A stretch of DNA of 64,000 bases from Armatimonadia bacterium (GTDB lineage: Bacteria; Armatimonadota; Zipacnadia; Zipacnadales; JABUFB01). Location of the stretch: the NCBI GenBank assembly GCA_039679385.1, contig JBDKVB010000067.1, positions 62,001-126,000 of the forward strand, in the 5' to 3' direction. Within the stretch, counting starts at the first letter, position 1. Each line of letters opens with the position of its first letter. The position numbers and the translations under genes are program-made. Below are positions 56,094-61,037 of this stretch, in pieces. The notes under the pieces were generated by a model that worked only from the letters and a program-made list of their open reading frames with translations, was not told where the DNA came from and searched no databases.

Positions 56094-58496
56094 CTACTCC
56101 TTGCGCTCGGCCCTCACCAGTAGGTCATCGGCGACCGCAGGCAGATCGAAGCGCATCTTCAGGGTCTGCGCGTCCACCTGGGTCTCGCTGCTGCTGGTCA
56201 CGTCACCCGTCAGAGTGTCGACAAAGTCCACTTTCCACGTCCCGGCAGACATGCCGAGAACGCTGACGGCAGCGCCGGTCTTGGGGTCCTTGATCTCACT
56301 GCGATCCTCGGGGCCAAGGGCAGCCGGGTCGTGTACATAGAAGAACCCCAGGCGGTCGCTGGCCATGCCGGTGGCTCGCAAGGCATCGGCGCCCTCCACG
56401 AACACGTTGCGCAATCGCAGGTACTGGCCCCGGCGGTCATACCCGGCGAAGAGCTTCTGGAGCGGCTTCTGATACCGGAACAGCTTGTACTGCTCCCACT
56501 CCTGCGGGTACCAGAACATGCTGGAGGCGGCTGTGGGCATCACCGCCGAGGTCCAGAGTCCGACCCGGAAGCGATTGCGCCAGTCTGCGGGCTTCAGGCC
56601 CCGTATCTCCGCGGTCTTGGGGCCGTACTCGATGAACACAAAGGGCTTCTTGAAGAGCGCCTCGAAGTTGTTGCCTGGATTGACCTTCCCCGAGTAGGAC
56701 TGCAGCATCCCCATATCGCTGCGGCCGTCCTTCTTGTTGTCCCAGTAGGCGTCGGACTGCACGACCTCCATCTCCGGCAGCGTCCAGAGCTCGTTGCCGA
56801 AGCTCCAGAACAGACAGATGTGCGTCTGGATGATGTGCTTCCACGGGTCGGTGGCCTTGAGGTACTTGGCCATCTCCTGGTGCCAGGCCGCCACCGCCTG
56901 GGTATCGTAGTTCTCGACCAGGTCGACCTCGTTCCACAGGTCCCAGGACATGATGTTCCGGCTGTAGCCCCAGCGAGCGATGATGTAGCGGTACCGGTTG
57001 CGGAAGTCGCGCTTCACGTCGGGACTGGTGAAGAACTGGGCCGGACTGGCGACATATCCCCCATTGCGGGTGTTCCAGGGGCTGTAGGTCCACTCTTCGT
57101 CGAACTTGTCGCGCCGGGCCTGACCGTGGCTGTTGAAGGTGATCTCCAGGTACAGGTCGTACTGGCGCGCCAGGTTCACGCAGTAGTCCAGGCGCCAGGC
57201 GTTATACAGGTTGTAGCGTCCCACGCCATCGAAGCGCGAGTGGTACTGGTCGCTCCACTCGATGCCTCCCCACCAAGCGCACATCCACGTTCGCACGAAG
57301 TTGAGCCCCTCCTCGTGGAAGCGCTTGAAGAAGAGGTCGAAGTCGTAGGTGCCCTTCTGGTTGGTCGCGTCATCCCCACCATCGCGCATATTGATCCCGA
57401 TGGGCCAGTACCAGTCACCGTTCTCGAACTCGAAGTACTGTGGGTCCTTGGTGCTGACGCGGACATACCCCTGGGGCTTCACCGGCACTGTCGCAGTGAA
57501 CTTCGCCGGCGTGGAAGTGGCCTTGCCCCGGGCGTCCGTGATAGTCACCCAGTAGCGGTACTCGCCCGCCTCTTTGGCCGCAAAGCGGACCTTCCAGCAA
57601 GGCTTGCCCACCGGCGTCAGGCGCTCATAGCCCTCGGGTGTCTGCCCGCGCTCGTACTCCTGATAGCAGAATCCGGGGACCGTGATCTCCGCACCGGAGG
57701 GAGCCACGAAGTGCCCCTCGACGTCCACAATCTCAGGGTCGAAGGGGTTCTCGTACTGGGCATCCAGTGGGAAGGTCAGCTCGAACTTCTCATAGATGGG
57801 GACGGAGGAGGCACTGGCCAGGATCGTCAGTGGCCTGTTCGCAGCGGGCTTGTCGGCGACGAGCTTGCCCAGCGGAGACTGTCTGCCACTGAGCGTCACG
57901 TTGTCGAGGTAGACGACGCCCTCCCAGGGCTTCTTCCCGAAGAACCGCAGGCCGAACTCCCGGGGGCGGTGGAGAGCGTTGAGATCCCATAGATGCTTGT
58001 GGCCGCCAGGCTGCCAGATCGTCGATGTGGGCGAGATATCGAGGTCGAAGTGCTGCCAGCTATCGCCACGGAGCTTGACGGTCCGCTTCAGGGTCCGCGG
58101 ATCCTTGAGCAGCGGCGTCTGGTACCAGTAGTAGCTGCGGTCCTTGAGGTAGATCCAGCAGTCGAAGGCGTCGCCAAGCTGCGCGGCGCTTGCAGGCACC
58201 CACAGATCGAAGGACAGTCGCGTGTAGCCCTTCCAGTCCTGCCAGGGCAGGTAGGTGCACCCGAAACCCGCCGGAAGTGTGCCGTAGACCTTCAGGGACC
58301 GTGTGCCGGATTGCGCCTTCTCGTCGGTCACCCGCACGTTCTGTGCCGACCCGTCGAGCGGCGAGACCGTCCACTGCTCGTTGAGCGGCGAGTCGGGGTC
58401 CTCGAAACCCCAGGTGAGGTCGTCGACGCCGGCAGCACCGGCAACGGCCACGCAGGCCAAGAGCGCAAGGCAGGCGAGTCTCGAGCAGAGGGGCAT
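56094..58496 (-). CDS. DUF5060 / GH5-like glycoside hydrolase
   Basis: The 800-residue product has a signal peptide (cut near AGAAG-VDD). N-terminal beta-sandwiches (a CBM-like domain about 25-215 and a DUF5060-like domain about 230-350) precede a TIM barrel (about 365-710) with GH5/clan A features: FVRTWMCAWWGG, SWDLWNEVDLVE (acid/base Glu at about 521) and FVFIEYGPKT (nucleophile Glu at about 622). A C-terminal beta-domain follows. Clan A enzymes hydrolyse beta-glucans, mannans or xylans by retention. The ATG at 58496 follows GGGAGG. It is followed on the same strand by the transglutaminase-like gene, probably in one transcript. Confidence 0.82.
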   Translation of the reverse strand: MPLCSRLACLALLACVAVAGAAGVDDLTWGFEDPDSPLNEQWTVSPLDGSAQNVRVTDEKAQSGTRSLKVYGTLPAGFGCTYLPWQDWKGYTRLSFDLWVPASAAQLGDAFDCWIYLKDRSYYWYQTPLLKDPRTLKRTVKLRGDSWQHFDLDISPTSTIWQPGGHKHLWDLNALHRPREFGLRFFGKKPWEGVVYLDNVTLSGRQSPLGKLVADKPAANRPLTILASASSVPIYEKFELTFPLDAQYENPFDPEIVDVEGHFVAPSGAEITVPGFCYQEYERGQTPEGYERLTPVGKPCWKVRFAAKEAGEYRYWVTITDARGKATSTPAKFTATVPVKPQGYVRVSTKDPQYFEFENGDWYWPIGINMRDGGDDATNQKGTYDFDLFFKRFHEEGLNFVRTWMCAWWGGIEWSDQYHSRFDGVGRYNLYNAWRLDYCVNLARQYDLYLEITFNSHGQARRDKFDEEWTYSPWNTRNGGYVASPAQFFTSPDVKRDFRNRYRYIIARWGYSRNIMSWDLWNEVDLVENYDTQAVAAWHQEMAKYLKATDPWKHIIQTHICLFWSFGNELWTLPEMEVVQSDAYWDNKKDGRSDMGMLQSYSGKVNPGNNFEALFKKPFVFIEYGPKTAEIRGLKPADWRNRFRVGLWTSAVMPTAASSMFWYPQEWEQYKLFRYQKPLQKLFAGYDRRGQYLRLRNVFVEGADALRATGMASDRLGFFYVHDPAALGPEDRSEIKDPKTGAAVSVLGMSAGTWKVDFVDTLTGDVTSSSETQVDAQTLKMRFDLPAVADDLLVRAERKE

Positions 58497-58622
58497 GTAG
58501 GGGCCTCCCGACCTAGTTTCGTCCGCACGCAGCCACCCCTCGCGCACACTCTTGCATAAGGACAACCAGCCCTCTGAAAGGTTCAAGGCAAGAGCGGCTG
58601 CCACAGAGTGGCTGACGGTCTA

Positions 58623-58650
58623 TTGACACGCGGGCGCGAACTACTATAAT
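58623..58650 (+). promoter_or_regulatory. Promoter of the blaI-like operon
   Basis: TTGACA (58623-58628), 16 bases and the consensus TATAAT (58645-58650) form one of the strongest promoters in the window. Confidence 0.85.
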
Positions 58651-58657
58651 AAGTAGT
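58640..58657 (+). promoter_or_regulatory. Putative BlaI/MecI-type operator
   Basis: The dyad ACTACTATAATAAGTAGT has 6-bp arms (ACTACT and AGTAGT) and a 6-base centre. It resembles the TACTAC/GTAGTA dyad of bla and mec operators and overlaps the -10 box, so binding of the BlaI-like repressor just downstream would block transcription. Confidence 0.7.
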
Positions 58658-58761
58658 AACTTAACGAAACTTCCGTGCGACTGTGACGTCAGAACCAGTG
58701 ACAGGGGAAACGAGCCGGTCTACGGGCACACCACCACGGACGGCTGCAGGAGATGGGAAGT

Positions 58762-59205
58762 ATGAGTGACCGGTCAACGCCTCGGGTGTCGGTTTTCAGA
58801 CCTCGCAAGGACGGCCTCGAAAAGACCCTGGGAGCCCTTGAGGCCCAGGTCATGGATGCCATCTGGCAGGCCAAGGAACCGGTGTGCGTAGAGGATGTAC
58901 GGTCGGCACTGGCGACGCATGGCAAGGATGCCGCGTACACGACCATCATGACCACCCTCAGCCGCCTCAACAAGAAGGGGCTGCTGGCCCGCGAGATGCG
59001 AGGCAAGGCCTACTACTACTCCTCCCGGGTTAGCCGGAGTGAGCTGAGTTCGACGGTAACCAAGCAAGTGATCGACGGACTTCTGGCAACCTTTGCTGAG
59101 CCCACAATGTCTTACTTTGTGGAGGCCCTCAGCAACTCCGACCCGAACAAGCTGGCTTCCCTGGCAGAGATCATCGAGCGCAAGCGACAGGAGAGGCAGG
59201 ACTGA
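58762..59205 (+). CDS. BlaI/MecI/CopY-family transcriptional repressor
   Basis: The 147-residue winged-helix protein matches the Penicillinase_R family: GALEAQVMDAIWQAKEPVCVEDV, then the recognition region DAAYTTIMTTLSRLNKKGLLAREMRGKAYYY. The C-terminal dimerisation helices (TKQVIDGLLATFAEPTMSYF) include the region that BlaR1/M56 proteases cleave. I prefer the ATG at 58762 because AGGAG is nine bases upstream; the ATG at 58753 directly abuts it. The M56 protease gene follows after four bases. Promoter and dyad upstream argue for autoregulation. Confidence 0.9.
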   Translation: MSDRSTPRVSVFRPRKDGLEKTLGALEAQVMDAIWQAKEPVCVEDVRSALATHGKDAAYTTIMTTLSRLNKKGLLAREMRGKAYYYSSRVSRSELSSTVTKQVIDGLLATFAEPTMSYFVEALSNSDPNKLASLAEIIERKRQERQD

Positions 59206-59209
59206 ACGC

Positions 59210-60214
59210 GTGACGACGACGCTCGTGGCGATGGTAATGGTCTCCGCCGTCGCCACGACCCTCAGTCTACTGGTGTACCTCCCTGCCCTTGCAATTGCCG
59301 AGTCCATACCACCACGCCGCGCAGATTCTCGCGCGGCGGTTTGGTTTTGTGCGCTTCAGCTGCCTCTTCTGGCCGGCCTCGTCGGAGCCGCCGTCGGCCT
59401 GCACAGCCTGCTCATCGACCCCTACGGCTCACCCCATCTCACCCAGATCCGACCGCACCTTTGTTCTGCCTGGATTGCCCAGACCCCCGACGGTGCCTGG
59501 CTACTGGGCCTCGTCGGCACTGCGGTTGGCGCCGTCTATGCGGCAGCCCTGATTCGCCTCGTACTGGGCGCCTGGCGCTCACGAGAGGCCGTGCGCAGGT
59601 TCGCCTCGGCCACCCAGTCCACTGTGGTCACCGTTGACTACCCGCAGGCCTTCCTGGCAACCATCGGCCTCCTCAGACCCCTCATCGTCACAACCACCGG
59701 AACCTGCGAGATGCTGGCACCCAGCGAGTTGGAGGCCGCACTGACCCACGAGGCCGCCCACCTCAAGCGCCGCGACAACCTTCTCGATCTACTCGCCTCG
59801 GCGGCCATGACCTGTCTGATCTACGTGCCCACGGCTCACCTGTACCTGCGCTATTACCGCGAGGAGATCGAGCGCGCCTGCGATGACCAGGCCGCAGCGA
59901 AGGTGACCCCGGCGACCGTATCCTCCGCGATTCTGAAGCTTGCGAGCGTTGCCGAGGAGATCGCCCGCGAACGGATTCTGCCCTCGGTCTCCTATCGCGG
60001 GAAGCATGCCGCTGCAGACGTTCGACGGCGGGCAGCGCGCCTGACCACGCTCGGAGCGCGGCCTCCCGCACGTGCCGGCGGGTTCTCTCTTGCCGGCGCG
60101 GCGCTGGTGCTGGGCGCCCTCGCGGTCCTGGCCCTTACCATGGCCGCCACGCTGCAGCAGGTGACCGACACTCTCCGCTGCCTGGCCGAATCCCTGGTCC
60201 AGGTCCTCACCTAA
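59210..60214 (+). CDS. M56 (BlaR1-type) membrane metalloprotease lacking a penicillin sensor
   Basis: The 334-residue polytopic protein has about four helices. The gluzincin motif HEAAH (180-184) lies in the cytosolic part, with a downstream acidic stretch (YREEIERACDDQAA) that contributes the third zinc ligand. A final transmembrane helix (GAALVLGALAVLALTMAA) ends close to the C terminus. BlaR1 and MecR1 carry an additional ~250-residue extracellular beta-lactam sensor; here only about 20 residues follow the last helix, so the signal is not a penicillin bound by that domain. It presumably cleaves the BlaI-like repressor encoded just upstream. The GTG start follows AGGAGAGG. Confidence 0.85.
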   Translation: MTTTLVAMVMVSAVATTLSLLVYLPALAIAESIPPRRADSRAAVWFCALQLPLLAGLVGAAVGLHSLLIDPYGSPHLTQIRPHLCSAWIAQTPDGAWLLGLVGTAVGAVYAAALIRLVLGAWRSREAVRRFASATQSTVVTVDYPQAFLATIGLLRPLIVTTTGTCEMLAPSELEAALTHEAAHLKRRDNLLDLLASAAMTCLIYVPTAHLYLRYYREEIERACDDQAAAKVTPATVSSAILKLASVAEEIARERILPSVSYRGKHAAADVRRRAARLTTLGARPPARAGGFSLAGAALVLGALAVLALTMAATLQQVTDTLRCLAESLVQVLT

Positions 60215-60245
60215 CCCCTGTCTCCGGTGCTCTACGCTTCAGCCC

Positions 60246-61037
60246 TTACCGGGCAGTCCGGCTCGCCTGCCACGCACGCCACAGGACGTCAAGGAAGACC
60301 TCGGCGTCTGGCACGTCCTGGGGCTGCAAGGCCGGGAATCGGTGCCGGAGTCCCTCCGCCATGCGCTCGGCAACCTGACGTCGACTCTGTTCAGTGAGCT
60401 CGTCGCGCCGCTCGATGAACCGGCGCAGCGTATCGACTTCCTGCGGGCTGAGCGAAGCAAGATGAAGCATCGCCTGGGCCACCAGCGGGTCCTGGTGTTG
60501 CTCGAGTACCGCCGGGGTGCTCTCGGCCGGTTCGACTGCCTCCGGGGCCTCATACCGGCGGACCTTCACCACGATCGTCCCGGCGGCCAGATCACCGAGG
60601 CGCTTGCACTTGCGCGTAACCAGGATGGAGATCATCCCGATGGTGTAGTACACAGGGAGCAGGTCCACGATCCGCAGGATGTTGCGCACGGCTGACTCAG
60701 TGAGGCCAATCGGGCCGCCATCATCTCGGACGACGAGGAGTCCGGCCATGCGCTTGCCGGGACTCTGCCCACCCCAGGTCAGCTCGAAGATCATGTAGTA
60801 GGCGATGATGATCAGGAGCGAGGAGAACAGCAGAATCCCGCCGCTCATGAGCAGGCGCGTGGTATCGCCGGTCATGAGGGTTCGGAACAGGCCCAGCGCA
60901 AGACCCAGGGCGAGGATCACCAGCGCCTGAAGCAAGGAGTCGACGACACCCGCGAGGAACCTCGAGCCTACTCCTGCAAGCTCAAGGTCGATGCGGACCA
61001 GTTCAGGCGTCTCGAAGACGACGTGGTCTTCCTGCAT
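60246..61037 (-). CDS. RDD-family membrane protein
   Basis: The 263-residue protein has the RDD family features: GVGSRFLAGVVDSLLQAL with an Arg-Asp motif in the first helix, two or three further helices, and ELTWGGQSPGKRMAGLLVV. The soluble C-terminal tail (about 175-263) is charged and helical (TPAVLEQHQDPLVAQAML, QEVDTLRRFIERRDEL). RDD proteins are of uncertain function, proposed as transporters (Na+/H+ antiport in one case). It is divergent to the SpoIIM-like gene (about 80 bases between starts), a pairing often seen for RDD genes. Confidence 0.88.
   Translation of the reverse strand: MQEDHVVFETPELVRIDLELAGVGSRFLAGVVDSLLQALVILALGLALGLFRTLMTGDTTRLLMSGGILLFSSLLIIIAYYMIFELTWGGQSPGKRMAGLLVVRDDGGPIGLTESAVRNILRIVDLLPVYYTIGMISILVTRKCKRLGDLAAGTIVVKVRRYEAPEAVEPAESTPAVLEQHQDPLVAQAMLHLASLSPQEVDTLRRFIERRDELTEQSRRQVAERMAEGLRHRFPALQPQDVPDAEVFLDVLWRAWQASRTAR

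Follow-up and report, generated by a model that had tools for sequence, protein, structure and literature searches.

Pairs of a BlaI-type repressor and an M56 protease that have no beta-lactam sensor are easily labelled resistance regulators from their family names. One such pair is encoded in the stretch of Armatimonadota DNA analysed here (64,000 nucleotides, hereafter the window; G000:C67:62001-126000, from a genome of 5.61 Mb in 184 contigs), and it raises the question of which genes the switch controls and where its signal should be sought. A conserved set of exported-protein genes that shares the operator of the pair offers a concrete place to look.

The blaI-M56 operon

The first gene of the pair is the single match to the Penicillinase_R winged-helix domain (PF03965) in the genome and the second is the single match to PF05569, both above the cut-offs (Table 1). 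The description of the first product as a BlaI-like repressor in an earlier note on this DNA was therefore borne out. The nearest solved structure to BlaI was 2g9w (E 3e-12), which we take to be Rv1846c of Mycobacterium tuberculosis; the partner of that protein, Rv1845c, presumably likewise lacks a sensor. Defence-system models matched BlaI weakly only, and a role as a defence-system component was set aside.

The two genes are separated by 4 nt. The next gene downstream encodes an RDD family protein on the minus strand (60246-61037) and is followed by a SpoIIM-family gene; because the RDD gene is convergent, the operon consists of two genes, with no third gene and no sensor gene. The earlier note had stated that no beta-lactamase or target gene follows and had allowed that a downstream gene might supply beta-lactam recognition. 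The former statement holds, and our search for such a sensor gene after the M56 gene found none. On the other side of blaI lies a divergent gene on the minus strand (56094-58498 of the window) for a DUF5060 protein that looks exported. As its start codon, the ATG at 58498, is about 145 bp from the operator, a divergent effect may occur. Inspection by eye of the ORF listings showed no such divergent DUF5060 neighbour at the blaI loci of two related genomes (G001 and G003).

Table 1. Features of the blaI-M56 locus, with positions in the window and residue numbers of the M56 protein
Feature	Position	Strand	Remarks
blaI promoter	58623..58650	+	TTGACA 58623-58628, 16-nt spacer, TATAAT 58645-58650; 12/12 consensus, sigma-70-type
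Predicted operator TACTATAATAAGTAGTA (TACTAY-N5-RTAGTA)	58642..58658	+	exact match, 1 of 5 genome-wide
blaI-like repressor gene, 150 aa	58753..59205	+	PF03965 88.6 bits, cut-off 22.6; alternative start ATG 58762
M56 membrane metalloprotease gene, 334 aa	59210..60214	+	GTG start; PF05569 47.9 bits, cut-off 31
Predicted external loop EL1 DPYGSPHLTQIRPHLC, residues 70-85	59417..59464	+	contains H76, H83, C85
HEAAH zinc motif, residues 180-184	59747..59761	+	H, E, H invariant in 27/27 orthologues
E-x3-D second gluzincin motif, E221 and D225	59870..59884	+	27/27 orthologues
C324, short C-terminal tail	60179..60181	+	25/27 orthologues; predicted on outer face shared with C85

The operator in the blaI promoter

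The blaI promoter is the sole promoter with a full consensus score in positions 58400-60500, where shuffled sequences give an expectation of 0.3, and its -10 hexamer lies inside the operator. The earlier note had reported both the consensus promoter and its overlap with a dyad, and these parts of its description stand; the frame that it gave to the dyad, ACTACT-N6-AGTAGT, does not. Comparison of the window with near-matches on contigs C53 and C100 yielded the common frame TACTAY-N5-RTAGTA, in which the window site reads TACTAT-AATAA-GTAGTA and is centred 1.5 bp to the right of the dyad as first drawn. This pattern occurs at five exact places in the genome and at just five with one mismatch. 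The chance expectation of exact sites per 5.61 Mb is 0.14 from base composition and 0.02 from a first-order Markov model of the window sequence. At target B (described below; C100:27742), the -35 hexamer TTGACA lies inside the operator and TATAAT follows 17 nt further on.

The genome scan with ACTACT-N6-AGTAGT that the earlier note had proposed returned a single exact match, the window's own, and its mismatch matches were mostly background. At up to one mismatch it recovered 3 of the 5 operators, missed C100:27068 and C179:1492, and added a place on contig C164 that we rejected, since it departs from the N5 motif at more than one position. With two mismatches allowed there were 97 matches versus 390 for the reversed control, which makes this frame unusable as a regulon probe. 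A guessed motif, TACTA-N3-TAGTA, found nothing at locus L003, and a search for TACTAC and GTAGTA with a gap of 3-9 found three sites and missed that of the window, so the N5 frame was adopted. Thus the original observation is real, and it is in its re-framed form that the operator serves as a handle for finding targets and defines a predicted, conserved regulon.

The label of a bla/mec-type dyad was loose. A TACA/TGTA core is reported for CopY, BlaI and MecI operators (PMC7253601), and the window site, which reads TACTATAATAAGTAGTA, does not contain the bla/mec/cop operator core TACANNTGTA given there. In half-site and spacing it is nearer to the BlaI site of Clostridium thermocellum, described in PMC8457756 as an inverted repeat of GTCTAT with the halves 5 nt apart. 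A second site with 11 of 12 matching positions, TACTATCGTCAATAATA, lies 39 bp past the first in the blaI promoters of the relatives G001-G003 (loci L063, L064 and L065) and is absent from the genome of the window.

Predicted targets in four related genomes

We compared the genome of the window with three relatives from its own family (G001, G002 and G003), which together form the family set. The BlaI proteins of the relatives are 67-69% identical to ours by alignment, and the M56 proteins encoded after blaI are 42-48% identical. Exact operators number 5 in our genome and 5, 5 and 7 in the others, and the reversed pattern occurs in none of those three. All 22 sites precede either blaI or genes for exported proteins, export being called from the N-terminal sequence by eye and with a hydrophobicity rule, without a signal-peptide program. 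Five targets, each with an operator in all four genomes, account for 20 of the 22 sites. Target A is the blaI-M56 operon itself. Target B, exported and about 165 aa long, contains the motif WYRGYFDG; target C, whose gene adjoins that of B and has its own operator, is likewise exported, has about 170 aa and carries GYxDG repeats. Target D is a lipoprotein of 203-233 aa. Target E, again exported, ranges from 482 to 668 aa, with two of its copies running off the contig end. All four genomes have orthologues of B, C, D and E, the proteins of our genome being 52-58% (B), 55-62% (C) and 44-49% (D) identical to their orthologues, and E 36% identical to that of G001. G003 accounts for the two sites left over, one an additional operator in front of D and the other in front of the gene for one more exported protein.

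None of the four non-self targets of our genome was recognised as a beta-lactamase, a transpeptidase or a penicillin-binding protein, so the control of a beta-lactamase or resistant PBP gene that characterises BlaR1/MecR1 systems was not seen in these targets. Pfam gave no match to the target families of our genome except Yae1_N-like repeats in C; we read these, together with a FliH match of the same protein, as driven by composition. The output of the switch thus appears to be a few exported, mostly uncharacterised proteins. The earlier note had called both the signal and the regulated genes unknown: a conserved list of exported-protein genes now replaces the second half of that statement.

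Two features of these loci were noted in passing. Targets D and B each have a neighbouring gene for a DUF6785/DUF6784 membrane protein (L013:3469-5436 and L014:7966-9927, on C53 and C100 of our genome); the two proteins share 34% identity, and the gene beside B is divergent from the B operator. A short motif resembling G-E-V-I-G, G-L-I-E-G or G-L-I-T-G recurs, by eye, towards the C-terminus of targets D and E (L013:5559-6203, L049:5946-7949, L057:3-1970).

Distribution across the class

The class Zipacnadia (Armatimonadota) has been described from hypoxic and anoxic settings (PMC10290634). The named relatives found in the BlaI profile search were MAGs labelled Candidatus Zipacnadia and Armatimonadetes, which would place the genome of the window there as well. 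We surveyed 46 genomes of the class, 34 of which have a BlaI match; 31 of these matches are orthologue-like (E < 1e-38), and the other 15 genomes have no orthologue. The 31 genomes with an orthologue contain 160 exact operators versus 28 occurrences of the reversed pattern, with at least 3 sites in 30 of the 31, and the 15 without it contain 8 versus 9. The number of sites differs between the two groups with p 7e-8 (Mann-Whitney, genomes counted regardless of relatedness). Individual genomes depart from this pattern: G044, one of the 15 and 79% complete, has 4 sites with BlaI undetected, and exact sites are outnumbered by control sites in G009 (1 versus 3) and G025 (3 versus 4).

Thirty blaI loci were examined, and 29 entered the operator count after omission of L070, for which there is no upstream sequence. 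An operator with at least 11 of 12 matching positions lies upstream of blaI in all 29 (12/12 in 24), a result that 0 of 200 shuffles reach per locus; binding of BlaI to this inverted repeat at its own promoter, as is typical of the BlaI family, is predicted. In 25 of the 29, a -10/-35 pair scoring at least 9/12 overlaps the operator, and the -10 box starts at operator position 4 in 24 of those 25. In family f5 (L074 and L076), the blaI operator has 11 of 12 matching positions, and a search for an overlapping promoter found none. The M56 gene follows blaI in 28 of the 30 loci, and one of the other two is at a contig end.

For the export test we used the 71 non-blaI sites that were listed among the 160 exact ones in genomes with an orthologue; blaI loci and L115-L117, which come from genomes without one, were excluded. 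An exported-like ORF starts within 200 nt of 56 of these 71 sites, as compared with 83 of 3016 random positions, and an exported-like N-terminus was found in 58 of 189 genes of the same loci. The automatic rule left 15 of the 71 listed sites without such an ORF; by eye most of them have one, L133 and L153 excepted. The targets examined included no recognisable beta-lactamase or penicillin-binding protein. Proteins of families B, C and D are again targets in other families; the remaining targets are lineage-specific and in many cases of low complexity. The set of targets changes from family to family, and f5 and f7 have neither B nor D. Target D is present in 22 of the 31 genomes with a BlaI orthologue and in 1 of the 15 without (E 8.8e-4), and target B in 23 of 31 and 7 of 15, which argues against an obligate link of B to the switch.

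Among the other operator-linked genes, an exported family recurs in family f3 (L138, L143 and L148, with TPR repeats in L143), and the operator of L142 is accompanied by an exported CsgG-like protein. Genes for large exported proteins begin close to operators, in divergent orientation, at L142 (G015) and L147 (G017), the product at L147 matching GHL10 and DUF4350. Outside the class, the TACTAY-N5-RTAGTA operator was absent from the relatives examined (L161 and L162 of Chloroflexi; L163-L165). The two Chloroflexi loci have BlaI-M56 pairs with 39% BlaI identity.

The M56 protease and its predicted outer face

The PF05569 match covers residues 97-234 of the M56 protein. The Pfam search returned M56 and M48 matches only and no penicillin-binding domain, the protein ends about 20 residues beyond its last hydrophobic segment, and the NCBIfam model blaR1_generic scored 19.6 bits against a cut-off of 400. 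The C-terminal penicillin-binding sensor of BlaR1 and MecR1 is therefore missing, as the earlier note had read from the sequence. We aligned 27 complete orthologues from the 30 loci, having dropped L083 and L086 (no M56 found) and L079 (off contig). Domain, HExxH and ExxxD place the protein in the M56 family, and the ExxxD motif corresponds to E242xxxD of BlaR1 (PMC9834060).

An AlphaFold model built with 8 sequences had a mean pLDDT of 81. BlaR1 was its best Foldseek match (E 0.017, probability 1.00), residues 8-269 of the model superimposing on BlaR1 1-294 with Z 13.3 and rmsd 4.1 over 220 residues, and the second fold match was ZMPSTE24 (Z 7.8). A sequence search of solved structures with the M56 profile gave just a weak match to HtpX (E 0.3), and the fold search decided the matter. 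Because the model best fits BlaR1 1-294, the membrane and protease parts are predicted to be BlaR1-like, with the sensor domain missing.

By analogy with BlaR1, EL1 would be located outside. Two conserved spots in the 27 orthologues, SPHL..RPHLC and DSLYC, fall where BlaR1 has EL1 and its external C-terminal part. In EL1, H76 is kept in 24 of 27 sequences, H83 in all 27 and C85 in 25. C85 and C324 occur together in 25 orthologues and are jointly missing from the other 2 (L074 and L076); as these belong to one genus, the loss was perhaps a single event. EL1 is reported to be active in BlaR1 signalling (PMC9834060), which, together with the conserved outer-face spots, makes a disulfide or a metal site a fair guess, although EL1 is modelled with a pLDDT below 50. 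The cysteine pair is thus a candidate sensor. If it is one, it would show an M56 receptor working without a dedicated sensor domain, and would bear on the evolution of BlaR1-type receptors and on the role of EL1. The two loci without the cysteines show no recognisable promoter at the blaI operator either; their genomes nevertheless contain 9 and 10 exact operators.

A proposed switch and its alternatives

We consider it likely that the pair, a cytoplasmic repressor with a membrane protease, forms an autoregulated switch that governs a small group of exported proteins and responds to an extracytoplasmic signal read without a penicillin-binding domain. A BlaI dimer would occupy TACTAY-N5-RTAGTA, which covers the -10 box at blaI and the -35 box at target B; from this placement we propose that bound BlaI blocks RNA polymerase. 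An extracytoplasmic signal would activate the M56 protease, which would then remove BlaI, and in our genome the operon and the four unlinked exported-protein genes (B, C, D and E) would be expressed. DNA binding, repression, BlaI cleavage and membrane topology are here those expected from the BlaI/BlaR1 family. How the signal is read is a guess: the external loop and C-terminal tail, through the cysteine pair and possibly the two histidines, may respond to a thiol or redox cue, a metal or a protein partner. More doubtful, and offered tentatively, is the wider idea of an order-wide envelope- or surface-remodelling regulon of Zipacnadia, in which the minimal M56 protein would sense through an RPHLC and DSLYC disulfide or a His/Cys metal site that replaces the penicillin-binding domain.

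The same switch might instead take a metal signal, as in PetR/PetP, with H76, H83, C85 and C324 binding copper or zinc and setting protease activity. In that system the BlaR-type protease PetP degrades PetR in the presence of copper (PMC7896320; PMC12292863), the outer-face residues are kept as counted above, and CopY_TcrY (TIGR02698) is the best NCBIfam match of BlaI. However, that match reaches 46.3 bits against a cut-off of 121.95, BlaI lacks the C-terminal Cys-X-Cys of CopY/TcrY, H76 is missing in L089 while both cysteines remain, and Pfam recognised no copper protein among the targets of our genome; we therefore regard this explanation as unlikely. A response to beta-lactams or cell-wall damage, with M56 informed by a peptidoglycan fragment or by a penicillin-binding protein distinct from it, would fit the exported targets and the BlaR1 fold, the closest solved one, and the C. 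thermocellum BlaI operons with BlaR1 were taken by their authors as beta-lactam responses (PMC8457756). The absence of recognised beta-lactamase, transpeptidase or penicillin-binding protein genes from the operon and the four non-self targets, and the blaR1_generic score, make it quite improbable, and it was rejected as the main explanation.

Similarly small is the chance that the M56 protein is a housekeeping quality-control protease of the M48/HtpX type, with BlaI left uncleaved and released by another cue. The protein does have an M48 match of 30.1 bits, and NCBIfam HtpX models outscore those for BlaR1, all far under their cut-offs; the position of its gene after blaI in nearly all loci and the rank of BlaR1 over ZMPSTE24 in the fold search argue against this role. 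Finally, since binding of BlaI to the operator is a prediction, the sites could belong to another repressor with blaI merely one of its targets. This is very unlikely: site number follows the BlaI orthologue over the 46 genomes, autoregulation is common in the BlaI family, and half-site and spacing resemble the experimentally derived BlaI site of PMC8457756.

The preferred reading, a BlaI/M56 switch without a beta-lactam sensor, agrees with that of the earlier note and is supported by the lack of a penicillin-binding domain and of any sensor or beta-lactamase gene following the pair. As the regulon is defined from sequence alone and kept across several families, both its output and its likely sensing surface are testable.

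Comparison with known systems

The switch is a variant of the BlaI/M56 type, and PetR/PetP is already a precedent without beta-lactam sensing. We found no report of a BlaI/M56 system in Armatimonadota or of a TACTAY-N5-RTAGTA regulon in the open-licence literature searched. PetR/PetP of Synechocystis sp. PCC 6803, where such a pair serves copper (PMC7896320; PMC12292863), likewise joins a BlaI-type regulator to a BlaR1-type protease encoded next to it, is not dedicated to beta-lactams, and controls very few proteins, four according to PMC7896320, some of them without known function. It differs in that plastocyanin/cytochrome c6 make up its regulon and that PetR acts as an activator as well, whereas here the promoters are those of exported proteins and only repression is predicted. 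BlaR1-BlaI and MecR1-MecI of Staphylococcus and Bacillus licheniformis share with our system a BlaI-family repressor, an M56 protease with HExxH and ExxxD, EL1, an operator over the promoter and autoregulation, which is here predicted. Unlike them, the present system has no beta-lactam sensor domain, no recognised beta-lactamase or PBP2a target, a different operator, and a two-gene operon with the repressor first.

M. tuberculosis BlaI (Rv1846c; PDB 2g9w) is the nearest solved relative of the window BlaI. It too has targets beyond beta-lactamase (PMC12565901), although the targets themselves are different. In C. thermocellum, DAP-seq of BlaI_0696 and BlaI_1845 gave half-sites GTCTAT/GACTAT and small autoregulated regulons (PMC8457756), and the BlaI_0696 site is an inverted repeat with a 5-nt gap, as is the window operator. 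The same study describes two inverted-repeat pairs per target, whereas one site per promoter is typical in our family set; the exception is target D of G003, which is preceded by two.
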